Shown here one piece after another: positions 1 through 15,507 of a stretch of 32,194 bases of DNA. Within the stretch, counting starts at the first letter, position 1; every line of letters begins with the position of its first letter. A program made the translations under genes and the position numbers. The notes beneath the pieces were generated by a model that saw only the letters and a list, made by a program, of their open reading frames with translations, had not been told where the DNA came from and made no database searches. The DNA is taken from assembly GCA_027451985.1 (NCBI GenBank), contig DAIDHS010000005.1, positions 64,267 through 96,460 of the forward strand, given 5' to 3'. This stretch comes from Elusimicrobiota bacterium (GTDB lineage Bacteria > Elusimicrobiota > Elusimicrobia > UBA1565 > UBA9628).

Positions 1-1119
1 TTCTCGGCGGCCGCGGATCTGATTAACTCGAGCGAGACCCCAGAGAAGTTTCGAGCGCACGCTGCGCGCGGCTCCGATTTTCTCCGCCGTCTCGAACATC
101 GTGCAGTACAAGTCCTCGGCCTCGTCATGGCGGCCGGTGCTGATCAAAATGTCGGCGAACTGGGATGTTTGGCAGGCCCAGGCGTAGTCGTATCGTCCGC
201 GGCTTTTCATGTCCTCAAGAGCGATTCGGGCGACATTCTCGCCTTCGCTCCATTTTTTTTGGCCCATGAAAACGCAGGTCAAACGGGCCGCTTCAAAATC
301 GCTTTTGGGAGTGTCGGCGGCGCCGATGGACTCGCGCCATAATTTTTGATGCAGAGGCTCCGCTTGAGAGGAGCGCCCGGCATCACGGTGCCGGCTGGCA
401 AAGGTCCTGTATCCGTAGTCATAGGCGCCCGCATCCGATGCCGACGCGACCAAAGCCTGGCCTTCCGGTATTTCCCCAGAGCTGATCAGGGCGAAACCCC
501 GTTGCATGTCCAGTTCGGGTGAGGATGCGCCGCAGGCCGACGCGGCCGGGCCGAGAGCGAGGACGTCCGCGAAACGGCCTGCATGGAACAGGCTTCGAGC
601 GAGCGTGCTCCATACGTGTTTTTTTTCAGGAGAGAGGGTGCGCGCACGGGACAAGCTGCGGATGGCATCTTCGAAATATCCGCTTCGATCTTGGACCAAG
701 CCTAATTCGTATGAAAAATCGGAGTCACCCGGGAAGGCGCTCGCGCCTTGGGCCAGAACTTCGGCCGCACGCTCGTTATTTTCCTGGTAGCGAAGAATGC
801 GTCCCGCCGTCAGGCGGGCTTGGGCCGTGGGAGGGAGGGAGAGGAGGCGTTCGGGAATGGATTCGGATTCCGCGTATTCGCCCAACTCCCAGAGGCATTC
901 CGCCAGGGCCCGCGCGCTTTCCAAGGAGCGGAAATCCGCCTCCCCGAAGTTTTGGCGCGCCTGCTGGAGCAGCGTGCGAAAACGCGAGGCCGCGTCCCCC
1001 AGCCGCCCAAGCTTGGCCATTTGGAGCGCATCGGATAATTCGGCATCCCATCTTATCTGGGTGGGGTCGCTCTGCGGGTCGGGCATGGGGGCTGTTCCGG
1101 GAGTGTCAGTGCGAAACAT
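1..1119 (-). CDS. TPR-repeat protein, C-terminus cut by window edge
   Basis: An open minus-strand frame runs from an ATG at 1119 to base 1 with no stop (373 codons visible), so the 3' end lies outside the window. The ATG lies inside the last codons of the upstream SGNH gene (overlap about 14 bases); a second in-frame ATG is at 1086. The product is alanine- and leucine-rich with helix-turn-helix periodicity typical of tetratricopeptide repeats, for example around residues 90-130 (YELGLVQDRSGYFEDAIRSL). No signal peptide or membrane segment is visible in the part present. TPR proteins are protein-protein scaffolds, so no enzymatic role can be assigned. It is the last visible gene of the minus-strand operon starting at 7337. 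The reading is supported by continuous frame, codon use and overlap; the exact function is unknown. Confidence 0.75.
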   Translation of the reverse strand, partial: MFRTDTPGTAPMPDPQSDPTQIRWDAELSDALQMAKLGRLGDAASRFRTLLQQARQNFGEADFRSLESARALAECLWELGEYAESESIPERLLSLPPTAQARLTAGRILRYQENNERAAEVLAQGASAFPGDSDFSYELGLVQDRSGYFEDAIRSLSRARTLSPEKKHVWSTLARSLFHAGRFADVLALGPAASACGASSPELDMQRGFALISSGEIPEGQALVASASDAGAYDYGYRTFASRHRDAGRSSQAEPLHQKLWRESIGAADTPKSDFEAARLTCVFMGQKKWSEGENVARIALEDMKSRGRYDYAWACQTSQFADILISTGRHDEAEDLYCTMFETAEKIGAARSVRSKLLWGLARVNQIRGRRE

Positions 1120-2782
1120 GGGATAGTTTATCCCCTGCTGTGCCGCCGCGCAAGGAGGCATAGGGAACACCTTCAATTCTGTGGATAAAGAAGATACCGC
1201 GCGGGTCGTGGGGGTTTTTCTTCAAGGCTTTGCGAAAATCAGCCAGTGCGGCTTGGCGGTGCCGTTCTTGGATGTCGAAGAGGCCTAATTGAATGAAAGG
1301 ATCCGCCCACTGCGGGAAGATTTCTCCGGCTTTTTGGTTCGCAGCGCGGGCCTCCGCGTCATAGCCTGCGCGCCAGAGCGCTTGTGCCAGGCCGAGGTAA
1401 GCGGCAGACCTGTCTTTAGGATTTTGGAAGGCGCGGGCGAAAATGGACCCTGATTTTTTTTGTAATTCTGGCAAGCAGTGGCCGTAAAGATAGGACATCC
1501 CCCACCACCCCTTTGGGAGCGGCCATGGCGATACGCGGGAGGCGTTGGCAATAATGAGCGAAGTCGGAGGCGGGCCGTAGGAATCTCGCAATGGGCCGTA
1601 GGATTTCGGCACCAGACCACGCCATCCTTTCTCCATGAACTGTCGCGCAGAGAGATAGGCGAGTTCATGGAAGTTTGTGTTCGTCACATGCTGACTGTCA
1701 AAGAAATTTCCCCAGCCAGGAATACCGTGAGGAGATTGGTCTTCGATTATTTGCTCCGCGTCCAGAAGCATCGTGCCGTCCCGGACTGCGGCGCGGCGGA
1801 TAAGGTTGTTGACTGCGGTGGAGGCCCTCATGCGCGCCGGATCCAGGTCTCGCGCTAAAATTAATTGGGAATACGCCTTCCGCCAAGCGGCCTCGCGGTA
1901 AAGCCATGCGCCAAGAGTAAAATGCCACAGGGCGGAGGGCTTATTTTCAACGGCGTGGCCGAGCAGGGCAATGGCCTGCCGGTGCAGCCCGGAGGCATAT
2001 TCGTAACGGGCCTCCAGGTAGGCTGGAGCGGTATCATCACCGAAACCTGGTTTGGGTTCCACCCATAAATTGGATGGCACCGTTGCCAGCATCAAAGGCA
2101 GGCCGCGCGCCCGCGCCTCTGACGACATCCGGTCAATAAAGTTTTCAAGATCGAGCCACCGTTTGGCGTCCGCGTAGTCTTGTCCCGGCCGGAAGATGTT
2201 TAGGTATGAAACCAAGGCGCTCTTGCGCGCCCATAGAATCAGGCGCAGGAGCAGTGGCGAGGCGTCGGGATACGAGTAATAGAGATTGTGACCGAAAAGA
2301 AAAATGATGGCATCCGGAGCGTAGCCCATGCATTCATCGAAACGCCGTTCTGCAAGCTCTAGATCGGCTCCGCCGATCGCACAATTGAGAACTTGATAAT
2401 TATGTGGAGAGGGGCCTCGTTTTATTTCCTGTTGAAGAGCCGCGCCCAGCATATCCGCGCTGGATTCCCCGGCGATGAGGATGCGTCGCACCCCAGGCGG
2501 CTTGTTGAACGGGAGAACTTGCCGTTTCTCCTGCTTCCAGATGGCATCGTTCTGGATGAGGTACGGGCGTCCTCCGATGGTTCTGATGGTAAAGAGCGGA
2601 CGCGTGCTTTCATCGAGGAATTCCATGTAATCGGGAGAAAGTTCGGGTTGATTGCGCAGTCTGCTCGGTCCGTAGCAGCGCACCAGCCATTCCGTGATGG
2701 AGAGAAGGCCGGCGGCTAGGATGGCCCCGGACAGTGAAAGAGAGAGTAAAAGCGCACGTCGGCGCAAGCGACCCGGCTTCAC
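1106..2782 (-). CDS. Membrane-anchored SGNH/GDSL-type hydrolase with C-terminal TPRs
   Basis: About 558 residues from a GTG at 2782, one base after the stop of the preceding gene; a TTG at 2824 would add 14 residues and overlap that gene. One hydrophobic anchor lies at about residues 12-32 after a very basic start. The SGNH blocks are readable: GESS near residue 105 (nucleophile Ser), NCAIGG near 134, GHN near 164, and DSQH near 362 holding the Asp-His pair. The last ~100 residues look like TPRs (AYLGLAQALWRAGYDAEARA). SGNH proteins of this kind are esterases or acyl-transfer enzymes acting on lipids, glycans or peptidoglycan; the substrate here is unknown. The anchor implies that the catalytic part is outside the inner membrane. 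It is cotranscribed with the radical SAM fusion upstream and a TPR protein downstream. Confidence 0.8.
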   Translation of the reverse strand: MKPGRLRRRALLLSLSLSGAILAAGLLSITEWLVRCYGPSRLRNQPELSPDYMEFLDESTRPLFTIRTIGGRPYLIQNDAIWKQEKRQVLPFNKPPGVRRILIAGESSADMLGAALQQEIKRGPSPHNYQVLNCAIGGADLELAERRFDECMGYAPDAIIFLFGHNLYYSYPDASPLLLRLILWARKSALVSYLNIFRPGQDYADAKRWLDLENFIDRMSSEARARGLPLMLATVPSNLWVEPKPGFGDDTAPAYLEARYEYASGLHRQAIALLGHAVENKPSALWHFTLGAWLYREAAWRKAYSQLILARDLDPARMRASTAVNNLIRRAAVRDGTMLLDAEQIIEDQSPHGIPGWGNFFDSQHVTNTNFHELAYLSARQFMEKGWRGLVPKSYGPLRDSYGPPPTSLIIANASRVSPWPLPKGWWGMSYLYGHCLPELQKKSGSIFARAFQNPKDRSAAYLGLAQALWRAGYDAEARAANQKAGEIFPQWADPFIQLGLFDIQERHRQAALADFRKALKKNPHDPRGIFFIHRIEGVPYASLRGGTAGDKLSHVSH

Positions 2783-2783
2783 G

Positions 2784-4724
2784 CTAGCCCGCCAATTCGC
2801 GGAGTTCGGGGAAGACGTCGGCAAAGCTCTCGCCGCGCAGGACGTCTAGCTTCGCCGTGATTTCCTGGAATTTGCGGCGCTCCTCCGGGAGATCACGGGC
2901 CGTCATGAATTCCACGGCTCCCTTGAGATAATCGACGGATCCGCGCGCTTCGTGGCCGAGCGGCTCGAGGACCTCCCGGATATGCCGGTCATAGCGCTCC
3001 CGCACGCGCTCCTTGAGGCTTCGCGGCAGAATCTGCAGCTGATAGTGCTCGGGCGTCATAACCAGATTGACGACGATGTTTTTCGCGAGGACGTAGCCCT
3101 TCTCGATCCATTCTTTCTGGAGGTCGGGCAGGCACAGCGAGTTGAGCGCGCTCAGGGTCGAGATAAGGTTGAACTGGGCGCGAGGACAGACGCGGGCCAT
3201 GTGCTTACGGTTGGCCAGGATGTCGTCCCACTTTTGCCCCTTCCGGATGTACTCTCCGCGCCGTCCCATCGCGTCGATGGAGGCTCCCACGTGCACGGTC
3301 TCGAACTTGTCCCAAAGGGCGAAAATGTCGTTGTCTTGGAAATGGGTCAGCGAGAAATTGGTGCTATAGAGAAGGCGCACGTGGAAGAGCTTGCGTTTGG
3401 CCAGGAAGTCCAAAATGCGGAAGTGCTCTTCCATCAGCAGCGGCTCGCCGCCGGCGAAATAAATTTCCTCCAGATTGGGAAGGATGCCTTCAATCTGGCT
3501 CCAAAGCGCGTCCGATTCGCCCGGCCTCAGGAGGGCCATGGCTTCGCTCTGCTTCCCAGTCAGCGCGGCGTAGTCCGCGTGCCAGGAGCTGCTGAAAGTC
3601 GGGCCGCACATGCGGCACCTGAAATTGCAGACGTTGGAGAACCGGAAATCCAGGTAAAAAAGCCGGAAGGGCTCGACCGAGCCGTCCGGCTTCGTGCTTT
3701 CGGTCAATTCGTAGCGGTGGGGAAAGTTCCTGTTCATCCGCTGCCGCTGGCTGGGCGAGCCGTGCGATTCGGCTTCGTAGCACCGGGAGCAGGCCGAGCT
3801 CTTCTCGCCGCGAAGCATGTTGAGCCGCAGCTGCTTTTCGCTTTGGGAGTTCCATAGATCCGGCAAGGCGTCCTTGTGCAGATTGCCCAGGGGCGGCGCT
3901 TTCCAGGTGGCGCAGCACGGATAGACATTGCCGTCGGGCCAGGCGCTGAGGTGAATCCAGGGCAGAATGCAGAAGACTTTCGAATCCCTGAGGTGCTCGA
4001 CGGCCCGCAGGGTCCACTCGGGGGGCTTTTTGCCCATTTCCTCGAGGCGCGCTGGCGTCCCGGATCCGGCCTTGAGCAGCGTGTACTGATACCAGAGGCG
4101 GGCTTCGTTCGGCGATTGAGCGGGATCGGATGGCAGATTTTTGAACTGGTCGCTGTTTTCGGAGAAGAGGCGGTCCATGGCCGGAACGTTCATCGCTTCC
4201 GCCGCCCTCAGGTACCAGGAGCGCGCCTTGTTGAGGTCTTTCTCGACGCCGTTGCCGTTGAGATACAGGTCACCGAGAACGCTTTGAGACTTGGCGTGGC
4301 CCAGGCGGGCCGCGCGGAGATACCATCTGATAGCCTGGGCGCAATCGACCTTGACCGCCATGCCGTAGAGGCATTGGTTGCCGAACAAGTGAAAGGTCTC
4401 GGCGTAATAGTCCAGACGTTCCTTGCGGTTCGGGGGGGCGCAACGGCGATAGAATTGGAACGCCTTGGAAAAGCTCTGCGGAACGCCCTGTCCGTTGCGG
4501 TAGAGATCGCCCAGAGCTTTGTGCGCGCCCAGACAGTCTTGCTGCGAGGCTTGCTCGAAGAGCCTGCGCGCTTCCGACGGATCAGACGGGAAAAACTCTC
4601 CCGAAAGATGGAGAAGACCGAAAGTGACAAGGGCCCGGGGATCGCCTGCCTTGGCGGCGCGGCTGATTTCCTCTACGGCCGCCAGCTTGAAGGCGGCGGC
4701 GCTTCCCGCGGCTCGCGGCATCAT
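2784..4724 (-). CDS. Sel1-repeat + twitch-domain + radical SAM fusion protein
   Basis: 646 residues. Residues about 28-182 carry about four Sel1-type repeats (e.g. LGDLYRNGQGV at 71, LGDLYLNGNGV at 150). Residues about 250-316 match the cysteine-rich N-terminal twitch domain seen in some radical SAM proteins: FCILPWIH at 251, Cys270-Cys271, GNLHKD at 280, LPDLWNS at 287, and Cys312/Cys315 at RCYEAE. This would bind an auxiliary iron-sulphur cluster. Residues 366-373 hold the CX3CX2C radical SAM motif (CNFRCRMC), followed by the GGEP SAM-binding motif at 425. Family knowledge gives a SAM-dependent radical enzyme with a second cluster, but the substrate is not predictable. No signal peptide is seen, so it is probably cytoplasmic. 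The ATG starts one base after the stop of the TPR gene upstream. The Sel1-radical SAM combination is unusual. Domain calls are confident; the role is unknown. Confidence 0.88.
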   Translation of the reverse strand: MMPRAAGSAAAFKLAAVEEISRAAKAGDPRALVTFGLLHLSGEFFPSDPSEARRLFEQASQQDCLGAHKALGDLYRNGQGVPQSFSKAFQFYRRCAPPNRKERLDYYAETFHLFGNQCLYGMAVKVDCAQAIRWYLRAARLGHAKSQSVLGDLYLNGNGVEKDLNKARSWYLRAAEAMNVPAMDRLFSENSDQFKNLPSDPAQSPNEARLWYQYTLLKAGSGTPARLEEMGKKPPEWTLRAVEHLRDSKVFCILPWIHLSAWPDGNVYPCCATWKAPPLGNLHKDALPDLWNSQSEKQLRLNMLRGEKSSACSRCYEAESHGSPSQRQRMNRNFPHRYELTESTKPDGSVEPFRLFYLDFRFSNVCNFRCRMCGPTFSSSWHADYAALTGKQSEAMALLRPGESDALWSQIEGILPNLEEIYFAGGEPLLMEEHFRILDFLAKRKLFHVRLLYSTNFSLTHFQDNDIFALWDKFETVHVGASIDAMGRRGEYIRKGQKWDDILANRKHMARVCPRAQFNLISTLSALNSLCLPDLQKEWIEKGYVLAKNIVVNLVMTPEHYQLQILPRSLKERVRERYDRHIREVLEPLGHEARGSVDYLKGAVEFMTARDLPEERRKFQEITAKLDVLRGESFADVFPELRELAG

Positions 4725-4725
4725 C

Positions 4726-5667
4726 TTATTCGGGTGCGCACGAGGTCCAGGGCGAAGCGTACTTGCCGATGTTGTTGAGCAGGTAGCGGGCGTTCTTGGC
4801 TCCGCCGTCGTCCCCGATTTTCCCGTAGATGGAAAGAGCCATGCGCCAATAAGCTTTCGCCTTGGCCGTGTCGCCGCAGACCGCTTCCGCCGTGCCCATT
4901 TTGAGCAAAATTTCCAGCGCGTGGGGCGACTGCGGATCGCAGGCGCTCAGCACCAGAGCCTCCTTCCCGGCCTTACGCGCCGTGGACCAATCCGCGAGGC
5001 TTTCCCGAAGGTCGAGCGCCATCGAGAAGGCGGTGACGGCGTCTGAGCATTCCGCAACCTGCGAGAATTTCGAGCGCTTTGCCGCTAGGGTCGCCTCGAT
5101 GGCGGTGAGCTCGACGCGAGCCTGTCGGGGATTTCCCGCGGCGATCAGGTGCTCCGCCAGGCCTACGCGTAAAATCGTTTTCTCAAGATCGCCGCAATTG
5201 GGGGAGGAGAGGCACTGCTGGCGGGCTTCATTCAAGACCCGCGCGGCCGCGTCTTTTCGTCCCAAGCCGTCTAAGATTTCGGCCCGATGGACGACAATCC
5301 AGGACCACATCGGCAGGGACATGTCGCACTCTCTGGCCGCCTGCGCCAGCAGATCCGCCGCCTTTTTTTGCCCGCCGGAGGCGGCGTAGACTTGGGCTAG
5401 GCGCTGAAGAGAATCCGCATAGTTGTTGCCCTTTTGCCCCTCCTCGCGGTAGAGGCTAAGCGCCGCCTCGAATTCTCGCCGCGCGTCGTCCATGCGTCCC
5501 GCGCCCAGGTCGATTTCCCCGGCGCGCTGATGGCGCAGCGCTTCTTCCGTGAGGTCTTTTCGGAATTTGCGGAAATGAAAAAAATAGGCCAGGAGCGCGA
5601 TGGTGAGAACGCCGACCGTCAAAAGAATCCGATTGGAAGCGCGCCGCATGATTGATGATTTTTCCAT
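4726..5667 (-). CDS. Membrane-anchored TPR protein
   Basis: 313 residues. A basic N-terminus (MRRASNR at residue 7) is followed by one hydrophobic segment at about residues 13-30 (ILLTVGVLTIALLAYFF), then only soluble helical repeats. TPR-like units include about 40-75 (QRAGEIDLGAGRMDDARREF), 82-112 and 118-150, continuing to the C-terminus. It is probably an inner-membrane protein with a periplasmic TPR solenoid. An alternative ATG at 5649 would trim six residues and has a slightly better purine tract upstream; neither start has a strong ribosome site. It lies between a nucleotidyltransferase-fold gene (53-base gap) and the Sel1/radical SAM gene (one-base gap), so an operon partner role is likely. 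No enzyme motif is visible. Confidence 0.82.
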   Translation of the reverse strand: MEKSSIMRRASNRILLTVGVLTIALLAYFFHFRKFRKDLTEEALRHQRAGEIDLGAGRMDDARREFEAALSLYREEGQKGNNYADSLQRLAQVYAASGGQKKAADLLAQAARECDMSLPMWSWIVVHRAEILDGLGRKDAAARVLNEARQQCLSSPNCGDLEKTILRVGLAEHLIAAGNPRQARVELTAIEATLAAKRSKFSQVAECSDAVTAFSMALDLRESLADWSTARKAGKEALVLSACDPQSPHALEILLKMGTAEAVCGDTAKAKAYWRMALSIYGKIGDDGGAKNARYLLNNIGKYASPWTSCAPE

Positions 5668-5691
5668 ATTAAATGCGGGTTTTCAATCGGA

Positions 5692-5705
5692 GCGCCTTCG
5701 GGCGC
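5692..5705. repeat. Small inverted repeat (GCGCC-TTCG-GGCGC)
   Basis: Five-base-pair G/C arms around a TTCG loop on the plus strand, CGAA on the transcribed minus strand. It lies in the 53-base gap between the nucleotidyltransferase stop and the TPR gene start. No T-run follows on the transcribed strand, so it is not a standard terminator. It could be a weak processing or pausing hairpin, or chance in GC-rich DNA. Confidence 0.3.
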
Positions 5706-5720
5706 GGACGGAGGCTTCGC

Positions 5721-7337
5721 TCAACAGTTGGGGGAGCGTTGGGACTCGAAGAAAGGCCCGTAAGAGCGAAAAAACGCTTCGGCGGGCGCGGAGTTGGCAT
5801 TCGTTTCCGATTGCGAGAGCCATTCCGATTCCAGCCGCGTGAGCCATCGCTCGGACTCGGGGAATTGTTCTCGATACCGGCTCAGCAGGGCATCCGCGTC
5901 CTGCGCGTCCATAGGTAAACCGTCGTTAAGGTAAAGACGGGGGGCCAGGATGCGGCTAAGGAGAAAGAAAATCCTGTAGGCGTTGTGCCCAGCCTTGGAG
6001 TCGAGGGCCAGGACCCGGATGGATAGATTGAGCGCTGCGGCCGTTTGGCGGGCTAAGGTACGCATTTCCTTCGGATTAGGAGCGAAGAGCCTGCTCGTGT
6101 CGATGTTCCATTGCAGGCGGTAATATTGATCCCATATTTGATGTTTCCGGCTATGCTTGAGAAGCCATATCTTTCGTGGGTCGCCCGCGGGGCCGAGGCC
6201 ATGCGCCAGGAACGGCGAATCAAGGAACGGGCTGTGGAGTAGGCCTTGCAGAATGTTGTAGGTGAGCGCCCATCCTGGAGCGGAAAAGGCGTTTTCGCGC
6301 AGGTGCCAGCGGTCCATCCTGGCGGCCAGGACCTCGAAATGCTCGGGCGTTGGCGGATGATCTAGGACGATGAACCATCGGAATAGGTTGTCCATGAAGA
6401 AGCCGCAGCCGCCGGGAATGTGAAGAGCCGCCAACGTACGCATGCGGCGGCTCCAGAGCGCGAAGTGCGGGTCCGGAGATCCGGCTAGGTCGTACCATTG
6501 GGCGGCATTGGGAGATTCGACGGCGAACTGGGTTCGGCTCTGGCCGGAAAAGTGCCTGCCGCAGGCTTCCTCCGCGAAGTTCATGGCTTCAAGCAGGAGG
6601 CGGCGCGCCCAATCCCTGTCGATCTCCTCGGGTCGCCGCAGAATTTTGGCTGATTCTGGCGCGGCGCCGGAGCGCGTCTCGCCCAAGAACTCCTGGCGGC
6701 TGGGAACTTCCAACGCTCCGTGCGCGGCTGCGCATCCATGGCGGAGGACGTCGATGAAGAACTTGGAGGTCTTGAATCCGAATTCTGGCGGTTCCTTTTT
6801 TCCGGCGGTCTCAAAATAAGTTTGCGCCAGAGACAAATAAGCGGCCAAGGCCTCCTGCAGGTGGAAAAGCTTCAGCGCCGAGGCGTCGCCGTCGGGAACG
6901 CGGTCCAAGGCGGGCCTGCCGCCGAGCGGGAGCCAGTCCGGCATTTCGCGCGCGCGCCATCCTCCGTGGCGGGCGTAGTCGCGGATCTCGTTCGGAGTCG
7001 TAATCTGGAGCTCTCCGAAAAAAGGGAAAAAGCGCTTGAAGCCGCGGTAAAGCCACCATAGCTTCTGAGCGGCTTCGGTTTCGACGCATGCTTGGCCATC
7101 TAAGATTGCGATGAGGTCGACGTCGCTTATTCCGGGAGTCCAGTCTCGGCGAGTCATTCCGCGGCGGAGATAGAGGCTGGCGCGGTTTCTAAAGCGCACG
7201 AAGACGGCAGCCGAAAAAAGAGCGATGGCGCCCCGGTAAATAGAGCGGTAGAGGCTCAGCCACGCCGGACGGTCCCGGGTCCGGATGACCCAGGCGCGGA
7301 GCGCGGCCATGAGACAGGAACGGCGTTTTTTAGCCAT
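5721..7337 (-). CDS. Nucleotidyltransferase-fold protein
   Basis: 538 residues from the ATG at 7337. The frame stays open further upstream, but a longer start would run into the divergent GT2 gene. The N-terminus is strongly basic. Residues about 55-80 contain a pattern resembling the pol-beta/MNT nucleotidyltransferase core: RRGMTRRDWTPG, then SDVDLIAIL at 71, whose two aspartates would bind metal. The remaining ~450 residues are tryptophan- and histidine-rich, probably helical, and not recognised. The classic GS dipeptide before the DxD is not clear (GMTRR instead), so catalytic activity is uncertain. Members of this fold transfer nucleotides to sugars, antibiotics, proteins or RNA. It is the first gene of the minus-strand operon ending with TPR, radical SAM and SGNH genes, and it shares a promoter region with the glycosyltransferase operon on the other strand. 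Confidence 0.7.
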   Translation of the reverse strand: MAKKRRSCLMAALRAWVIRTRDRPAWLSLYRSIYRGAIALFSAAVFVRFRNRASLYLRRGMTRRDWTPGISDVDLIAILDGQACVETEAAQKLWWLYRGFKRFFPFFGELQITTPNEIRDYARHGGWRAREMPDWLPLGGRPALDRVPDGDASALKLFHLQEALAAYLSLAQTYFETAGKKEPPEFGFKTSKFFIDVLRHGCAAAHGALEVPSRQEFLGETRSGAAPESAKILRRPEEIDRDWARRLLLEAMNFAEEACGRHFSGQSRTQFAVESPNAAQWYDLAGSPDPHFALWSRRMRTLAALHIPGGCGFFMDNLFRWFIVLDHPPTPEHFEVLAARMDRWHLRENAFSAPGWALTYNILQGLLHSPFLDSPFLAHGLGPAGDPRKIWLLKHSRKHQIWDQYYRLQWNIDTSRLFAPNPKEMRTLARQTAAALNLSIRVLALDSKAGHNAYRIFFLLSRILAPRLYLNDGLPMDAQDADALLSRYREQFPESERWLTRLESEWLSQSETNANSAPAEAFFRSYGPFFESQRSPNC

Positions 7338-7406: not shown

Positions 7407-8219
7407 ATGAAGCGCGCGCCCCTCGTCAGTCTGGTCATTCTCTGCCACAACGATGGGGACTACCTGAAGGAGTGCTTGCAGAGCGTCTCCCGTCATACCA
7501 AAACTTCATACGAAGTCATCATCGTGGACAATGCCAGCGTCGGCGCGTCCGCCAAGTATGTGAAGAGCCTCGCGCGGCGTCCGGGCTTCAGCGTCATCCG
7601 CAACAAGGAGAACCTTTATTTCGCGGGAGGCAACAACCAGGGAATCGAGGCCGCGCGCGGCAAATACGTCGTCCTCTTGAACGCCGACGCCGTGGTCGGT
7701 CCGGGTTGGCTCGAGCTCATGATTGGGTGCGCCGAGCGCGACAAAAAGGCAGGACTGGTCGCGCCCCGCACCAACGGCGCCACGAGCGTCCAGTTGGTCG
7801 ATAAACCCGGCTACGCGTCCGTCGCGAAGTTTCCCGCTTTCGCCAGGCAATGGGCGCGGCGCTATCGCGGCAAGAGCTTCGAGGCTCACCGCCTCATCGC
7901 GTTTTGCCTCTTGATCAAGCGCGAGGTTATCGAACGGATCGGCCTTCTGGACGAACGCTTCGGTCCCGGCGGCTACGAGGACTACGATTATTGCCTGCGG
8001 GCCCAGCAGGCCGGTTATAAGACGGTCGTGGCCCAGGACGTGTTCGTCCACCATTACGGCGGAAAGGGCTACTCCAACATGGATTACGATCACCACCGCC
8101 GCATCAACCGCGAACTGCTGGCTCGCAAGTGGGCGCGCCAGGCGTTTCACGTTCTAGACGACATGGACAGTGTGCGAATGTCTTCGGAACGCCAGACGGC
8201 CGGCGTTGCGCGGGGGTAG
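7407..8219 (+). CDS. Family 2 glycosyltransferase
   Basis: 270 residues, GT-A fold. The start is PLVSLVILCHN, followed by the nucleotide-binding VIIVDNAS at about 37-44, FAGGNNQG at about 72, and LLNADAVV at about 90, where the aspartate takes the metal-binding DXD position. Near residue 190 it has LDERFGPGGYEDYDYC, which supplies the acidic catalytic-base region, and then FVHHYGG. These are the hallmarks of rhamnosyl-/glycosyltransferases of the WcaE/COG1216 type. There is no membrane segment, so it acts at the cytoplasmic face with a nucleotide sugar donor. The donor and acceptor cannot be read from sequence. It is the first gene of the plus-strand operon; the radical SAM gene follows after 8 bases. 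It is paralogous to the GT2 two genes downstream. Confidence 0.92.
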   Translation: MKRAPLVSLVILCHNDGDYLKECLQSVSRHTKTSYEVIIVDNASVGASAKYVKSLARRPGFSVIRNKENLYFAGGNNQGIEAARGKYVVLLNADAVVGPGWLELMIGCAERDKKAGLVAPRTNGATSVQLVDKPGYASVAKFPAFARQWARRYRGKSFEAHRLIAFCLLIKREVIERIGLLDERFGPGGYEDYDYCLRAQQAGYKTVVAQDVFVHHYGGKGYSNMDYDHHRRINRELLARKWARQAFHVLDDMDSVRMSSERQTAGVARG

Positions 8220-8227
8220 CGCCGCTC

Positions 8228-9337
8228 ATGCCTTTGCGCCAGGATACGCAAAACTCGTCGGCGACGGTGTTTGCCAAAGACAAGATCTACGGGCACATGG
8301 ATCGCGTCCGCGAGTGGGCCAAGAGCGGCCTTTCCCGGCCGGTCACCATCGAGATGGACTTGACCAACCTGTGCAATCAGAAATGTCCGCACTGCTTCGG
8401 ATACGCTCCGGAGCGGGACGCGGCGCGCATGCACCTGGAGGAAGCCAAGCGCATCATTTCCGAAATTAAGGATGTGGGCGCACGGGGTCTGACGTTTACC
8501 GGGGGAGGAGATCCTTTGGTAAGCCCGATTTGCCTGCCCTGCGTGGAGCACGCGCGGGCGCTGGGCCTGGACGTGGGCTTCATCACCAACGCGCAGGCCC
8601 TGACCGAGACGCATGCGCGGACCTTGCTGGCGAACTGCCAGTGGCTGCGCGTGAGCATCGACGCTGCCACTCCGGAAGTCTTCATGAAGACGCACGGGAT
8701 GGACGCGAAGATGTTCCGGAAAGTCCTGGACAATGTGCGGCTCTTGGCGCGCTTGAAGCGCGAGACGGGCTCTTTCTGTACTTTGGGCATCGGCTTCTTG
8801 ACCAGCCCGGAAACCAAGAAGGACATCTACGCTTTCGCCGAGCTGGGCCGGAGCCTGGGCGTGGATTACGCGCAGTACCGGCCTCTTTTGCGCCGCCACG
8901 GGTTCGCGGACGTCGATTATTCCGATGCGGAAATCCTCTCCGAGATGCGCCGCGCCGCGGCTCTGTCGACCCCTGATTATCGCGTGGTGTCCTCGGAGCA
9001 CAAGTACGAGCTTATCGCCAGCGGGCAGCTCGAGAGGGACTATAAGAAGTGCTACGGCCAGCATTTCGCGGCGGTGGTCTCCGCGGACAAGAAGATGTAC
9101 GTCTGCTGCCACATGCGCGGCGTGGAGAAGTACTGCCTGGGCGACCTGTCCAAGCAGAGTCTGCCGGAAATATGGTCCTCAGAGCACAGGCGCAAAGTCG
9201 CGGACAGCGTCGACTTCAAGGATTGCCCGCCGTTGTGCCGCTGCGATTCTTTCAACACCATCCTTTGGAAAATAAAGGAAGAAGGCGCGCCCGCGGAGAC
9301 GGATCCGAAGCCGCGGGCTCATCCGAACTTCATTTGA
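8228..9337 (+). CDS. Radical SAM/SPASM-domain protein
   Basis: 369 residues from the ATG at 8228, 8 bases after the GT2 stop and preceded by a G-rich stretch; the frame is open further upstream inside the GT2 gene, but that region is not conserved-looking. Cys49, Cys53 and Cys56 form the CX3CX2C motif (CNQKCPHC) and FTGGGDP at 90-96 is the SAM-contact motif. The C-terminal ~95 residues are SPASM-like: Cys275, Cys293/294, Cys303 before LGDL, then LPEIW and CX3CXC at 333-339, enough for one or two auxiliary iron-sulphur clusters. Related enzymes modify peptides or oxidise/epimerise sugars and cyclitols. The sandwich position between two glycosyltransferases suggests, but does not prove, a sugar or glycoconjugate substrate. 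Overlap with the next gene hints at translational coupling. Confidence 0.9.
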   Translation: MPLRQDTQNSSATVFAKDKIYGHMDRVREWAKSGLSRPVTIEMDLTNLCNQKCPHCFGYAPERDAARMHLEEAKRIISEIKDVGARGLTFTGGGDPLVSPICLPCVEHARALGLDVGFITNAQALTETHARTLLANCQWLRVSIDAATPEVFMKTHGMDAKMFRKVLDNVRLLARLKRETGSFCTLGIGFLTSPETKKDIYAFAELGRSLGVDYAQYRPLLRRHGFADVDYSDAEILSEMRRAAALSTPDYRVVSSEHKYELIASGQLERDYKKCYGQHFAAVVSADKKMYVCCHMRGVEKYCLGDLSKQSLPEIWSSEHRRKVADSVDFKDCPPLCRCDSFNTILWKIKEEGAPAETDPKPRAHPNFI

Positions 9338-10662
9338 AGCTCCCGCCGGACGCTGACGCCGTGGGACGCGGGCTTGCGCAAGGCTATGCCCTTGTCCCGG
9401 CGCCGCCAAGCTGCCAAGACGCTTTTGCCCGCCGTCTTAAGCAATTCCTGCGCGCTCTGCCGCCGGGGATCAAAATCGTCACCGTCAACGGAAACATTCG
9501 AGATAGCCGCCTCCCGCTGGCAGACGACCTGCACGGCCTGCCCCTGCTGGTCGTCGAGCATCCCGCGACCCAGCCGATTTTATTCCATTGGGCGTATCAC
9601 TCCTCGTTTTTGTCCTTGGTGGCCGTCCGGCTGCCCGGAGCGCCGGAGAGTGATTCGTTTTCCGGCCATTGGATGCCCAGCTGGCACAGTAGTCCGCCGG
9701 TTTGGGCCGAGGAAGTGTGGGATTTCTCCCGTGATTTGGAAGTCGGGGACAGGTTCAGGCTGTTGCCGCGGCGGGTTTTTTCGCAGGCGAAGATTGATGG
9801 GAAATGGATTGCAAAGAGGTGGAGCGGGCTGAGAAGGCCACCTCGCAAGACGCGGCGCGGCTTGGCCAGCATCATCATTCCCTGCTGGAACGGCCTCTCC
9901 TACACCAAGCAGTGCCTGGCTTCGGTTTTAAAGCGTACCGACGGACCGCATGAAATCATCGTCGTCGACAACGGATCGGTGGACGGCACGGCGCGGTATG
10001 TCCGGTCCTTGAAAAACCCCAAAATCAGGCTGATCCGGAACTCGGATAACCGCGGATTCCCCCGGGCCGTCAACCAAGGCATGCGGGCGGCCAAGGGCGA
10101 CTATTTCGTTTGGCTCAACAGCGACGCGATTGTGACAGACGGGTGGCTGGGACGCATGGTCGGCTGGGCCGAGCGTTCCTCGCGGGTCGGCGCGGTCGGA
10201 CCGAGTTCAAACATGCCGGGAATTTCCTTCCAAGCTTACGAAGGCGCGCCCAAGACCGGAAAAATTCAGAGCTTCGCCAAGGCCATTTCTGACATTAATG
10301 ACGGACGCAGCATGTGGGTGCCGCTTATCACGGGCTTTTGTTTTCTGGTCAAGCGAGAGGCCGTCGACCGCATCGGATTTTTGGACGAGCGCTTCGGCCT
10401 GGGAATTTACGAAGACTACGATTATTGCTTAAGGCTGCGCCAGGCCGGCTACGCACTTTTAACGGCGCAGGACGTCTTCGTCCACCATGCGTGGCACAAG
10501 ACTTTCGAGCACAACGGGCTCGGCGGTCCCGCGATCGCGGCCAATAATCGCGATTTATTCATCCATAAGTGGTGCCGATTGGCGATGGATTTCCTGGACG
10601 GCTTCGGCAATTCCAGGGCTTTTATGCTGAAAACGCCCGGTAAACTTCGCCGATCCCGTTAG
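9334..10662 (+). CDS. Family 2 glycosyltransferase with unknown N-terminal module
   Basis: About 442 residues if started at the TTG at 9334, which overlaps the preceding stop as TTGA; a GTG at 9361 would give 433. Neither has a strong ribosome site, so the start is uncertain. Residues 1 to about 175 (containing VTVNGNIRDSRLPLADD and the Trp-rich GHWMPSWHSSPPVW) match nothing I recognise. The rest is a complete GT2 domain: ASIIIPCWNG at about 178, IIVVDNGSVDGT, GFPRAVNQG, WLNSDAIV for the DXD site, and FGLGIYEDYDYC, with FVHHAWHK near the end. Its C-terminal half closely parallels the GT2 at 7407. It is cytoplasmic by prediction, with donor and acceptor unknown. Its last 41 bases overlap tail-to-tail with the convergent GT4 gene. 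Confidence 0.85.
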   Translation: MKLPPDADAVGRGLAQGYALVPAPPSCQDAFARRLKQFLRALPPGIKIVTVNGNIRDSRLPLADDLHGLPLLVVEHPATQPILFHWAYHSSFLSLVAVRLPGAPESDSFSGHWMPSWHSSPPVWAEEVWDFSRDLEVGDRFRLLPRRVFSQAKIDGKWIAKRWSGLRRPPRKTRRGLASIIIPCWNGLSYTKQCLASVLKRTDGPHEIIVVDNGSVDGTARYVRSLKNPKIRLIRNSDNRGFPRAVNQGMRAAKGDYFVWLNSDAIVTDGWLGRMVGWAERSSRVGAVGPSSNMPGISFQAYEGAPKTGKIQSFAKAISDINDGRSMWVPLITGFCFLVKREAVDRIGFLDERFGLGIYEDYDYCLRLRQAGYALLTAQDVFVHHAWHKTFEHNGLGGPAIAANNRDLFIHKWCRLAMDFLDGFGNSRAFMLKTPGKLRRSR

Positions 10663-11860
10663 CGCGGACCGCCCAATCGTGGTTGCGCTCAACGAAACTC
10701 CTTCCCTCCGCCGAGATGCGCCGCCAGAGGTCCTCGTCCGTAAGGAGCTTGACGGTGTCTCGGGCGAATTTCCCGGGAGAGTCGGCGATAAGGATGTGCC
10801 GCCCGCCCGCGGCGCCCACGGCCTCGTTGGCGCAGGCTGACGAAACCACGGGCGTGCCCATGGCCATGGCTTCCAGGATTTTTCCCTTGATGCCGTAGCC
10901 GAGCCTGAGCGGCGCCACAATGACCATTGCCCGGGCTTCGTAGGGCTTGACGTCGGCAACGGTGCCGGTGACGATGATGGAAGGGTCCTGCTCCGAGAGT
11001 CCTAAAATTCTATTCGTCGGCCCCGATCCGACGACGTAAAACTTGGCCTTGGGCCGAGCGGCCTTGATCCGAGGCCAGGCCTGCGCCGCAAACCGCAAAA
11101 CCGCTTCCTCGTTCGGATAGTGGGGGTAATGGCCGACATAGGCGAGGCTGTCCGGTTCGCGTTCGGCGCGCAGCGGGCCTCCCGAGAAATGTTCGAGATC
11201 CACGCCGGTCGGGACGCTATAAACGCGCTTGGCGGAAACCCAGCGGCCCATCCGGCGCCTATCGGCTTCGCTGACCGTGATGACGGCGTCAAAGCGCCGG
11301 CAGAGATCCCGGGTCGCCGTCAGCCGCTTGCGCCAATCGCCCAGCCGGCGCCATTTGTTCCAGCCCGACATTTCCCGGAAATAGGAGGAAAACAGGGATA
11401 GGGCGGAGAGATCGTGGTGCGTGAGGATGCACGGCAGGGCCGGAACCTCCGATTTCACCGCGCGTACGTAAGGCGCCATGAGATCGAATTCGATGTGGAC
11501 GAGATCTGGCTTTAACTCCCGGATTGCTTTTTTCACGGCGAAGCTCATGTCCGGCGAATAGAATCCGGCGATTTCACGGGGAAGCTCCAGTCCCTCCTCG
11601 GTTCGCGGGAAGTAGTTCGAGGGCAAGGCGACGTTTCGGATGCTTTGAAACAGGTCGGGAAAATAAAGCTTTTCCTGGCCGAGCATAACGGCGGCGCTTT
11701 GCTTTGGGTCGTCCCCGCCCGGACGCAGGAAGGTCAGAAGATGAAAGTCGTAGCGATCCTTGAGCAGGCGGCAGGCGGTCCAAACGCGGCGGGACCCGGC
11801 GTCCGTGGGGATGGGGGCCCATGGTGTCAGCAGCAAAATTCGAGGCCTGCGTTCGCTCAT
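10622..11860 (-). CDS. Family 4 glycosyltransferase
   Basis: 412 residues, GT-B fold. The N-terminal Rossmann half starts RILLLTPWAPIPTDAGSRR, which carries the acceptor-side loop of this family, and is followed by VHIEFDLMAPY and LTHHD. VITVSEADRR and the PTGVD segment near 220 lead into the donor-binding half (SLAYVGHYPHYPNEEAV, KFYVVGSGP). The conserved GT4 donor signature is GYGIKGKILEAMAMGTPVV, with the Glu that contacts the nucleotide sugar. The overall layout resembles exopolysaccharide-type sugar transferases. It probably acts at the inner face of the cytoplasmic membrane in glycan assembly. It starts 12 bases after the membrane GT2 gene as the last gene of the five-gene minus operon from 16632. 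Donor unknown. Confidence 0.92.
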   Translation of the reverse strand: MSERRPRILLLTPWAPIPTDAGSRRVWTACRLLKDRYDFHLLTFLRPGGDDPKQSAAVMLGQEKLYFPDLFQSIRNVALPSNYFPRTEEGLELPREIAGFYSPDMSFAVKKAIRELKPDLVHIEFDLMAPYVRAVKSEVPALPCILTHHDLSALSLFSSYFREMSGWNKWRRLGDWRKRLTATRDLCRRFDAVITVSEADRRRMGRWVSAKRVYSVPTGVDLEHFSGGPLRAEREPDSLAYVGHYPHYPNEEAVLRFAAQAWPRIKAARPKAKFYVVGSGPTNRILGLSEQDPSIIVTGTVADVKPYEARAMVIVAPLRLGYGIKGKILEAMAMGTPVVSSACANEAVGAAGGRHILIADSPGKFARDTVKLLTDEDLWRRISAEGRSFVERNHDWAVRANGIGEVYRAFSA

Positions 11861-11872
11861 GCCGTGACCATT

Positions 11873-12898
11873 TTATATTAAAGATCGCGGCAGGGGCTTT
11901 CCGGTCAGGAATCCGGCGCCGTAGGCGACGTGAGACAGGGGTACGAGCAGAGCGAAGAGCAGGCCGGCCGCCGCGCTCTTTTTGCGCAGAGCGCTTTGTA
12001 CGGCTTCGCCCGCGACGGCCAGGACATAGAGGGCCGGAAGCGCCCAGTAAGGGGCAATAGGGCGGAGGATGGCGAGGGAAAACGCGTAAAGCACCAGAAT
12101 GGCGGGGAAGAAGAACACGGCCTGGGCTGTTTTTGAGAGCTTGCGCATAATCTGCCGCCGTCCGACTCCGGACTCATAGACTTGGGAGAGGAACGTCCCC
12201 AGCGAAGCGCGGCGGCGGTGGTAGACGGCTAGGGCCGGGGCATAAAGCGCGGGGCGGCCCAGGGATCGGAGTTGTGCGACGAAAAGATTTTCTTCGGCGG
12301 AGGCGAGCGCCGGATCGAAGTTCAGCCCCAACTCGCGGAAGGCTGCCGCCCGGATGCACAGGTTGCACAGGGCGAACGATTTCTCGTCGGCCCAGCGGGG
12401 GCCGGGGCCGGGGGCGTAGCGCCTGCGCATCGGTCCGGCGCCGATTCGGGATTCCAGCACGAGCCCGGAGGCGCGCTCGAAGAGGCCGCTGTCGGGCGGC
12501 GTCAGATTGGGGCCGCCCAAGATCCAGGCTTCATCGTGCGCCGCGAGGAGGGAACCCGCGTCCGAGAAAAGTTCCGGCGGCACTTCGACATCGTCATCGA
12601 GAAAGTAGAGCCACTCCCCTTGCGCCATTGCCGCGGCGGCATTGCGCGCCGCGCCGCGCGACTGCCGCTCGAGGGGGAGGATTTTCATGCCGGGAATGCG
12701 GGAGGAAAATGAGCGCGCCGCCGCGGCGTCTTCCGGATCGTTGCCGTTGACGATTAGGAGCACCTCCCTGACGAGACTCCGATCCGCGGTCGACAGGCTC
12801 GAGAGGCAGGAGCGCAGGAGTTCCGGCCGCTTGTGCGTGAGGACGATTGCGGAAAAAAGCGGCGCCTGTCCGGGCCGATTTTCAGGGGCCGGCGTCAT
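11873..12898 (-). CDS. Membrane-associated family 2 glycosyltransferase
   Basis: 341 residues from the ATG at 12898, which overlaps the preceding stop as ATGA, so translation is probably coupled. The GT-A domain is clear: FSAIVLTHKRPELL at about 15, VLLIVNGND near 47, RGAARNAAAA near 81 and YFLDDDVEVP near 98, with DDD as the metal site. The C-terminal ~85 residues form about three hydrophobic helices (FFFPAILVLYAFSLAIL, WALPALYVLAVAGEAV, AAGLLFALLVPLSHVAYGAG), placing it on the inner membrane. This layout is common in GT2 enzymes that use polyprenyl-linked sugars or extend lipid-linked glycans. Next to a TMTC-like transferase, it may build the lipid-linked donor; that is inference. Confidence 0.88.
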   Translation of the reverse strand: MTPAPENRPGQAPLFSAIVLTHKRPELLRSCLSSLSTADRSLVREVLLIVNGNDPEDAAAARSFSSRIPGMKILPLERQSRGAARNAAAAMAQGEWLYFLDDDVEVPPELFSDAGSLLAAHDEAWILGGPNLTPPDSGLFERASGLVLESRIGAGPMRRRYAPGPGPRWADEKSFALCNLCIRAAAFRELGLNFDPALASAEENLFVAQLRSLGRPALYAPALAVYHRRRASLGTFLSQVYESGVGRRQIMRKLSKTAQAVFFFPAILVLYAFSLAILRPIAPYWALPALYVLAVAGEAVQSALRKKSAAAGLLFALLVPLSHVAYGAGFLTGKPLPRSLI

Positions 12899-15507
12899 GG
12901 CCTTGCGCGGGGGGCGGGAGCTTGCGAATTCAGTCGGCGCATTAACGCGGCGGCTTCCGCGCTGCGGCCGGACTGCCGATAAGCGCGGGAAAGCCACTCA
13001 TAAGCGGCGCGGTAGCCCGGGAAGTCGGCGATGGCTTCCCGCCACGCTTTTTCAGCCTCGGCCAAGCGACCTTGCCGGTAATAGCAGATGCCCAAATTGG
13101 TCCATGTCGGCGCAAGATTTTGGTTGAGGCGCGGCGCGGGGGAGTTGGCGATGGCTTTTTGATAGCTTCCGATGGCTTCATTCAAGTTTCCTTCCTGCAG
13201 GTAAACATTGCCCATGTTGTTGAGAAGGCTGGGGTTTAGAGGGAAGAGGGCGAGCCCGCGCGAGAGATAGTCCTGGGCTTGGGGCAAGTCGCCGCGCTGC
13301 AGATAAAGCCCGCCGAGATTGTTGAGCGCGGCGATTTTGCGCGGATCGTTGGACAGGGTCTGCCGGTAAAGCGCGATGGCCTTGCCGGCGCGCCCAGCTT
13401 GCTGCTCAATGACGGCCAAATTGTATGCCGCATCAGAGTAGCTTTGATCAAGACTTAAGGCCTTCTCCAGGGATTTTTCGGCCTCGCGGGGATGGCCGCA
13501 GCGCATCTGCGCCATGCCTAGGTTGTAGCGGGCTGCGGCATCGCTAGGATTGCGGGAGACGGAGCGACGGAGCCAGAAAAGGGCCTTCGGGCAATCCGCG
13601 GCGTGATCGTACTCCACGCCGAGGTTCATCATGGCGCGGGCGTCCTGGGGAGACGCCGCTAGGAACGAGAGCCAAACCTTAGCCGCCTCCAGGGCTTCTC
13701 CTTGCTTGTCGAGAAGCGCCGTGAGGGCAAAGCTGGCCGCGAAGTCGCGCGGTTTTTTTCGTACCGCTTCCTGCAACTGGTAGGCGGCCAGATCCGGGCG
13801 CCCGGTTTTTTCAAGGAGCTTGGCCATGCTGATTTGAGCCGCGGTGTCGGTGGGATTTTCCTGCAGCGCCTTGTGGTAAATCGCCAGCGCGGCGGCGACC
13901 TGTCCTTTCTTCGCCAGTGCCGCTCCCAGACTGTCGTAGGGGATGGAATTGCCGGGATTGAGGCGGGCCGCCTCGGAGTAGAGTTTAAGGGCGCGACGGG
14001 ACTCCCCTTTTATTTCCTGCAGGCCGGCCAGGTTGTTCATGGCTTCTATGTAGCGTGGATTCAAGGCGATCGCGGTTTTGTAGTCTTGTTCCGCTTTGCC
14101 CAGGTTTCCTTGCGCTTGCGCCATGAATCCCAGGTTGTAGTAGATGCGGGCGTTCTTTGATCCCAGAGCGGCCTCTCGGCCGAAAAGAACGGCGTCATTT
14201 TTCCATTCGTTGTTGCGGGCGCGCGTCATCGAGGAGAGCAGAGCCAGGACGGAGCCCGCGGCGAGCAAAACGAAGAGCTTGAGCTTCGGCCCCGAGCGGC
14301 CGGCGCGGGCGATGGCAAGGGAAGCGGCCCAGCCCGCAATCCATGCGAAACCAACGGCGGCGGGATAAAGATAGCGCTCCGCCATGGGGTTGTAGAGCCT
14401 GACGATGTTCGATGCGGGCAGCAAGACGATGAGCCACCAGCCCAGGCCCCAGGGCAGCGGCCGCGCTCCCAGCGCGTAGGCGCGCGCTCCGGCCGCGAGA
14501 AGAAGGAGGAAGAGCGCCAGAGCCGCCAAAAAGCGCCAGTCCGCCCATGAAGAAATAAGCGGCGGGGCCCGATCCGCGCGAAGAGGATAAGGAATAATCA
14601 TCAGCCGCGCGTAATCGGCGAAAACTACGCACATGGTCCTAAAATTTAGCTCCGGCCAGTGGTAAAGGGCGTCCCACTGCGGAGTGGAGGGATTAAGGAC
14701 AACTTCCCGAGGGCTCGGAGACTGCGCAAGCGCGGCGTCATCCCTGATCGCCATGACTGCGGGAGTCGCCTGAGAGGAGATGCTTTGATAACCCGAGCGG
14801 CCGGATCTGAAATGCCAGTAATAGAGGGCCAAGTAGCCGAAAAGGATCATGGCCGCGAGCCGGCGCCAGAATTTGGCGCGCCAAGGCCTTTCCAGGAAGC
14901 AGAAGTCGAACCAGAGGGCTGCGGCCGGCAGCACCAACGCGGTCTCCTTGGAAAACGCGCCCAAAGCGTAGGCCATGCCGGCCGCGGCCATGGCCGCGCC
15001 GGCGCTGCCCGGTTCCGGCGCGCTTTCCATTCTGCGGTAAGCCATGAGCGCCAGCAGCATGAACAGGACGGCCAGAAGGTCGGGGCGGAAGCTGGGCATG
15101 TTCACCGCTTCCGTGTTGATGGGATGGACGGCGAAAACCAGGCCGGAAATGAGAGCTGCGTCTGGATTCAGGAAAAGCAGTCCCGCGCGCCAAACCAAGA
15201 CGGCGTTGAGGCCGTGAAGGATGACGCTGGTGAGGTGGTAGCCGAATGGCCCGTCGCCCCAAATTCGATGGTCAATGACGAGCGAAGCCAAGAAAATCGG
15301 CCGGGCCGCGCTGAGGATGGGAACTACGGGCGCCAAATCGATTTGCTCCACCAACGTTTTTAAAGCGTGGGGCTCGGCTAGGAACGCATTGCTCTCGATA
15401 AGGATATGGTCATCCCAGCAGAAGCCATTTTTGAGGGTGTTGGAGTAGGCGAAAAACGCGGCTGTGAAAACTGCGGCGCCCAGGACGAGCGTTTTTATTT
15501 TTGGCAC
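12895..15507 (-). CDS. TMTC-like polytopic membrane protein with TPR array (putative O-glycosyltransferase)
   Basis: 870 residues. The N-terminal half is polytopic (first helix about 7-25), with NGFCWDDH at about 27-34. The WDD acidic pair sits in the first periplasmic loop, as in GT-C enzymes of the PMT/TMTC class. Further family-like features are VFAVHPINTEAV, FSKETALVLP and NIVRLYNPMAERYLYP. From about residue 440 to the end there are about a dozen TPRs (e.g. YYNLGFMAQAQGNLGKAEQDY, ALNNLGGLYLQRGDLPQAQDY). Eukaryotic TMTC proteins O-mannosylate cadherins from dolichyl-phosphate-mannose; bacterial relatives are mostly uncharacterised. The start is a GTG 13 bases inside mutM, with no other usable start before the first helix. 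Probably an inner-membrane enzyme with a periplasmic TPR domain that selects protein acceptors; the substrate is inferred. Confidence 0.82.
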   Translation of the reverse strand: MPKIKTLVLGAAVFTAAFFAYSNTLKNGFCWDDHILIESNAFLAEPHALKTLVEQIDLAPVVPILSAARPIFLASLVIDHRIWGDGPFGYHLTSVILHGLNAVLVWRAGLLFLNPDAALISGLVFAVHPINTEAVNMPSFRPDLLAVLFMLLALMAYRRMESAPEPGSAGAAMAAAGMAYALGAFSKETALVLPAAALWFDFCFLERPWRAKFWRRLAAMILFGYLALYYWHFRSGRSGYQSISSQATPAVMAIRDDAALAQSPSPREVVLNPSTPQWDALYHWPELNFRTMCVVFADYARLMIIPYPLRADRAPPLISSWADWRFLAALALFLLLLAAGARAYALGARPLPWGLGWWLIVLLPASNIVRLYNPMAERYLYPAAVGFAWIAGWAASLAIARAGRSGPKLKLFVLLAAGSVLALLSSMTRARNNEWKNDAVLFGREAALGSKNARIYYNLGFMAQAQGNLGKAEQDYKTAIALNPRYIEAMNNLAGLQEIKGESRRALKLYSEAARLNPGNSIPYDSLGAALAKKGQVAAALAIYHKALQENPTDTAAQISMAKLLEKTGRPDLAAYQLQEAVRKKPRDFAASFALTALLDKQGEALEAAKVWLSFLAASPQDARAMMNLGVEYDHAADCPKALFWLRRSVSRNPSDAAARYNLGMAQMRCGHPREAEKSLEKALSLDQSYSDAAYNLAVIEQQAGRAGKAIALYRQTLSNDPRKIAALNNLGGLYLQRGDLPQAQDYLSRGLALFPLNPSLLNNMGNVYLQEGNLNEAIGSYQKAIANSPAPRLNQNLAPTWTNLGICYYRQGRLAEAEKAWREAIADFPGYRAAYEWLSRAYRQSGRSAEAAALMRRLNSQAPAPRARP

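Follow-up and report, generated by a model that had tools for sequence, protein, structure and literature searches.

The minus-strand operon at the start of this stretch encodes a radical SAM protein (gene C) carrying an N-terminal Sel1 solenoid, a new architectural variant of the known N_Twi_rSAM family (NF033640) that lies beside a notable radical SAM island. We tentatively read the stretch, with a probability of roughly 45%, as one branch of a surface-glycan island particular to this lineage, in which radical chemistry in the cytoplasm would tailor a glycan unit and SGNH enzymes would edit acyl esters in the periplasm. The operon sits at the edge of a large island of radical enzymes and sugar transferases, and probably decorates a cell-surface sugar polymer.

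A six-gene operon and its glycan setting

The home genome (G000) is a 2.4-Mb draft from an uncultured member of the Elusimicrobiota, and the window, by which we mean the whole 32,194-nucleotide stretch analysed, covers positions 64267-96460 of its contig C5. Five tightly packed ORFs (A to E, all confirmed) occupy the minus strand of positions 1-7337. From A to E, the gaps between them are 53 (or 71), 1, -41, and 19 or -71 bases; the ORF coordinates thus agree with the preliminary description of a tight minus-strand operon with genes 1-53 bases apart or overlapping. A sixth co-directional gene, F (G000:C5:62360-63613), lies just beyond the window edge and overlaps E by 4 bases, making this a six-gene operon.

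Gene A (5721-7337, minus strand, ATG at 7337 or 7310) encodes a protein of about 538 amino acids with the motif R-R-G...PGxSDxD, conserved family-wide, in which S-D-x-D, containing a DxD metal-binding pair, is invariant. The protein has no match in Pfam, NCBIfam or PHROG; its sole PDB-profile match is a very weak one to the nucleotidyltransferase 1ylq (E=0.8), and the AlphaFold model from the single sequence reaches a pLDDT of 36. The nucleotidyltransferase fold proposed earlier is plausible at the level of the motif: the DxD pair is conserved, but the nucleotidyltransferase-type G-[GS] ahead of it is absent, with R-R-G-[MLQ] in most homologues, and no family match backs the assignment.

Domain scans identify B and E as TPR proteins. 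B (4726-5667, minus strand, alternative ATG at 5649) combines the repeats with an N-terminal transmembrane (TM) segment, and E (1-1086 in the window, minus strand, start at 1086 or 1176; whole gene at G000:C5:63610-65352) is a soluble protein of 580-610 amino acids at full length, cut by the window edge. With the Sel1 repeats of C and weak TPR matches in D, solenoids do occur in four of the five genes, as first described. TPR_16 is found in about 37 reading frames of the home genome, a count that misses other TPR types, so that four solenoid genes among five neighbours are unusual, not extreme.

D (1106-2824, minus strand) is a TM-anchored SGNH protein with inserted and C-terminal TPR, and F a TM-SGNH protein of 417 amino acids. 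In alignment, all the SGNH blocks (Ser, oxyanion Gly and Asn, Asp-x-x-His) are kept in D, F and their homologues, as in GDSL/SGNH hydrolases (PF13472). F scores 48.4 against the Pfam cut-off of 32.9, whereas D stays below it at 21.8, the model being interrupted by the TPR insertion, itself a weak match. D differs from these hydrolases further in its TPR insertions and TM anchor, and both proteins are predicted to be hydrolases or acyltransferases. Each of the three predicted membrane anchors of the operon (B, D and F) is a single N-terminal TM segment; the two anchored proteins first counted, B and D, stand, but F raises the total to three. Judging by the orientation that this segment implies, the SGNH domains of D and F probably lie in the periplasm. 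Two more F-like TM-SGNH paralogues (about 46-49% identity) are present in the home genome on contigs C13 and C3 (L074, L075), away from radical SAM genes. The sister assembly, G001, holds two F copies (L070 vs L069; contigs C190 and C233), 98% and 74% identical to F, perhaps a sign that the bin contains more than one strain.

The surroundings are rich in glycan genes. Divergent from A are a GT2 glycosyltransferase (7407-8219, plus strand), the conserved partner of A, and behind it gene H, a radical SAM/SPASM protein (8228-9337, plus strand). Positions 9862-15507 hold, by domain scan, a GT2 (plus), a GT4 (minus), a second GT2 (minus) and a PMT-type GT-C with TPR (minus). The last, at 12895-15507, is a membrane glycosyltransferase with a long TPR array at its C-terminus. 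On the other side, beyond F and convergent with it, lies X, a TM-anchored SGNH-TPR gene, preceded by Y, a B12-type radical SAM gene, and then by a series of further radical SAM genes. One alternative is a known O-acetylation machinery like that for alginate or cellulose, in which D and F would be the AlgJ/AlgX-like SGNH partners. The presence of TPR partners and membrane-anchored SGNH proteins among glycan genes would suit it, but no MBOAT acyltransferase was found among the proteins scanned around the operon (a scan that left out some small genes), and we regard this explanation as very improbable.

Gene C, a Sel1-fused member of the N_Twi family

Gene C (2784-4724, minus strand) matches NF033640 with 395.8 bits, well over the curated cut-off of 170, across positions 1-397 of the 398 in the profile. 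Four Sel1 stretches (4149-4682, minus strand; residues ~15-192) precede the N_Twi_rSAM domain (2793-3983, minus strand; residues 248-644), in which the SPASM/twitch region is followed by the radical SAM core. The CxxxCxxC cysteines (C366, C370 and C373; 3606-3629, minus strand) and those of the auxiliary cluster (252, 270, 312 and 315) are invariant in both alignments made, one of 18 sequences and one of 52. C therefore is, by its domains and cluster cysteines, an intact Sel1-fused NF033640 member with predicted radical SAM activity, and the radical SAM and SGNH content first described for the operon stands. C shares with the family its full length, domain order and all cluster cysteines, and differs in the added N-terminal Sel1 solenoid, where relatives have TPR instead. 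Among the frames of the loci scanned, Sel1 was found on no other N_Twi frame, while TPR is fused to N_Twi, in front or behind, in five proteins of four genomes. A match of C to AlgK is a generic repeat match, far under the cut-off. No TM segment is predicted in C. In its AlphaFold model, confidence is high over the catalytic part (pLDDT mostly >90) and low over the Sel1 repeats.

What might C act on? The twitch region matches BtrN by sequence (E=1e-5), with similar cysteine spacing. BtrN is 2-deoxy-scyllo-inosamine dehydrogenase, an aminocyclitol dehydrogenase. C cannot be classed as BtrN-type, however, since the twitch precedes the core in C and follows it in BtrN. The solved folds closest to the model of C are mixed, which counts against a glycan substrate: the sactisynthases SkfB and CteB come at the top, with viperin, anSME, also high, and BlsE, and the front part resembles Sel1 proteins. 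Alternatively, C could belong with the RiPP-type or protein maturases and use its solenoid to hold a peptide or protein, the SGNH proteins acting elsewhere. TPR and Sel1 usually bind proteins, and the fusion of N_Twi to solenoids at either end fits such a role. PqqD-like (RRE) genes, which would accord with it, adjoin A and the GT2 in two relatives (G011 and G031) and an N_Twi gene in a third (G007), but a small local HMM detected none in the window, the G000 island (L001, L082) or the islands of G015 and G021. Nor was a precursor peptide found, and the surroundings are mostly glycosyltransferases. Modification of a peptide or protein is on balance unlikely. The PqqD-like small proteins of the relatives (L033:8591-8860, L034, L042 and L063:11159-11431) are located near glycosyltransferase/A or N_Twi genes.

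Distribution of the operon, the island and the family

Do the genes of the operon travel together? C-like proteins occur in 9/117 genomes and A-like proteins in 25/117. Leaving G000 aside, strong A matches and N_Twi genes occur in one and the same set of eight genomes, though there on separate contigs. Across the phylum, NF033640 is exceeded at its cut-off in 8/341 genomes, all of one family. B matched itself alone in the 47 genomes searched (0/46 others), and E has, besides itself, a match at 92% in the sister genome and a single weak one at 26%. The sister genome keeps D-E-F-X-Y collinear, and its A faces the GT2 and H; its contigs end at the very point between A and D where B and C would lie. 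A faces the same GT2 in G001, G011, G031, G015, G020, G009 and G007. In five of these (G011, G031, G015, G020 and G009) it does so without C, B, D or E, while in G007 an SGNH-TPR gene lies between A and the GT2, overlapping A in the same operon, with H behind the GT2. The operon is real but lineage-specific. The five genes were first proposed to co-occur as a unit; they are instead largely scattered among relatives, with B an orphan, E essentially genus-only and A accompanying the GT2, mostly without the others, and a conserved five-gene pathway was rejected.

With B and E restricted to the lineage, a common history of all six genes is conjectural. Alternatively, genes of separate function may have been brought together in this operon, in a genome where TPR and radical SAM genes abound. 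The scattering just described is what such an origin would leave, as is the persistence of A and its GT2 without C to F in most relatives; 45 radical SAM places occur in the genome, and the GC3 of D and F (0.62) is under that of C (0.79), which may mean separate origins. The tight or overlapping spacing points the other way, together with the joining of an SGNH-TPR gene and A in one G007 operon, the order D-E-F-X-Y kept in the sister genome, and a proximity of SGNH and N_Twi genes beyond expectation. SGNH genes lie within 5 kb of 5/18 N_Twi loci against 0.59 expected (P ~2e-4, with rounded genome sizes and a 5-kb cut-off of the analyst's choice). The P value is 0.002 without the window locus, and the association weakens when G021 is added as 5 or 17 loci (P=0.001 or 0.02); no SGNH gene is nearby at 13/18 N_Twi loci, nor at any G021 locus. 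We consider the absence of any shared pathway unlikely.

The 31-73 kb part of C5 accounts for 16 of the 45 radical SAM places. Left of the window, about 13 radical SAM domains fall within 20 kb (G000:C5:40589-60725; L082, L001), and this part also holds B12-binding genes, a metal-dependent hydrolase-like gene and a 184-aa protein without family. In G015 (L046), the genes at 52.7-60.7 kb follow the order of the home genome, with identities of 38-81% and four N_Twi domains set among them, and in G021 (L047) most island genes are present with two N_Twi genes. The genes and order of this multi-radical-SAM island with the N_Twi family recur across three genera.

Elsewhere the family is expanded. 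G021 (MAG MJ-2014_bin-0981; L094-L113) carries 39 N_Twi frames in head-to-tail arrays on many contigs. Their catalytic domains are 65-94% identical, all keeping CxxxCxxC, and their N-terminal extensions span 138-788 residues, with TPR where scanned. The neighbours of N_Twi in other loci are PhyH, GT2, GDSL, carbamoyltransferase and ABC-2 genes, or a GT/ABC-transporter cluster. At least 583 relatives were detected in viral contigs, and the best 80 viral loci (L157-L236) together carry 412 N_Twi genes, some five at each locus, in arrays of 2-8, beside NodU/TobZ-type carbamoyltransferases, aminotransferases and GDSL/DUF6071 proteins. Several conserved families without Pfam or PHROG match are also found in these loci. 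The best phage structural match to C, A0A6J5LG68, aligns over 551 columns and has an extra N-terminal part. A Sel1-N_Twi fusion was sought in the phage loci scanned and none was found; the phage arrays differ from the operon in this respect and in the presence of carbamoyltransferases. Isolated phages and plasmids have distant copies only.

These arrays resemble the cassettes of marine T4-like phages, in which radical SAM genes are likewise multi-copy and placed in variable glycan-related islands. A T4-like environmental phage genome has 12 radical SAM genes (PMC5332604), and radical SAM cassettes lie in the host-recognition islands of pelagimyophages, where glycosyltransferases are thought to alter the host O-chain (PMC7029224). 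The passages of these two reports that describe the cassettes do not name the radical SAM family; the phage contigs of the present analysis carry N_Twi.

A candidate surface-glycan modification system

A carbohydrate substrate is favored by the glycosyltransferase setting, the pairing of A with the GT2, the BtrN-like twitch and the company that N_Twi keeps elsewhere, while the fold matches and the PqqD-like genes of some relatives keep a peptide or protein substrate in play. Under the glycan reading, for which we infer substrate and step order throughout, the Sel1 solenoid of C would bind, in the cytoplasm, either a sugar unit attached to a carrier or protein or the enzymes that make such a unit. 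C would then perform a radical oxidation, its second Fe-S cluster taking up the electron, a role established for the corresponding cluster in BtrN and anSME. The adjacent glycosyltransferases would build the chain, and after export D and F, acting in the periplasm, may transfer or cleave off acyl groups held in ester linkage. B and E could serve as TPR scaffolds, and A, if an active nucleotidyltransferase, might activate or transfer a nucleotide-linked unit.

The lack of a TM segment in C and the N-terminal TM segments of D and F make chemistry on both sides of the membrane likelier than one complex. The single membrane-bound complex first suggested is therefore unlikely, with C presumably cytoplasmic and the SGNH domains of D and F probably periplasmic. 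The accompanying idea of envelope-polymer modification fares better: the GT2, GT4 and PMT-TPR genes at 7407-15507 and the recurring link between the N_Twi radical SAM family and SGNH genes speak for it, while the substrate and the chemistry are our own extrapolation. As first noted, the gene set is not known to correspond to any named pathway, and the literature and databases searched hold no known polysaccharide locus of like composition. The literature searched likewise yielded no publication on the gene cluster A-F and no described function for the N_Twi family.

A bolder proposal, which we judge quite improbable, is that a single, so far undescribed system for modifying a surface polymer comprises both the operon and the island next to it. 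Solenoid-fused radical SAM copies would have been duplicated and re-specified by their repeats (Sel1 here, TPR elsewhere, with dozens of copies in one relative), so that each copy has a target of its own. Membrane SGNH-TPR enzymes would complete the product on the outside, and the catalytic module would be one shared with aquatic phages.

The N_Twi family spans hundreds of phage contigs and sporadic bacteria. Its recurrent neighbours (SGNH proteins, carbamoyltransferases and glycosyltransferases), together with the solenoid fusions, offer a testable guess at the target. If the surface-glycan reading is true, a radical tailoring step would be added to bacterial and phage-driven surface-glycan change.
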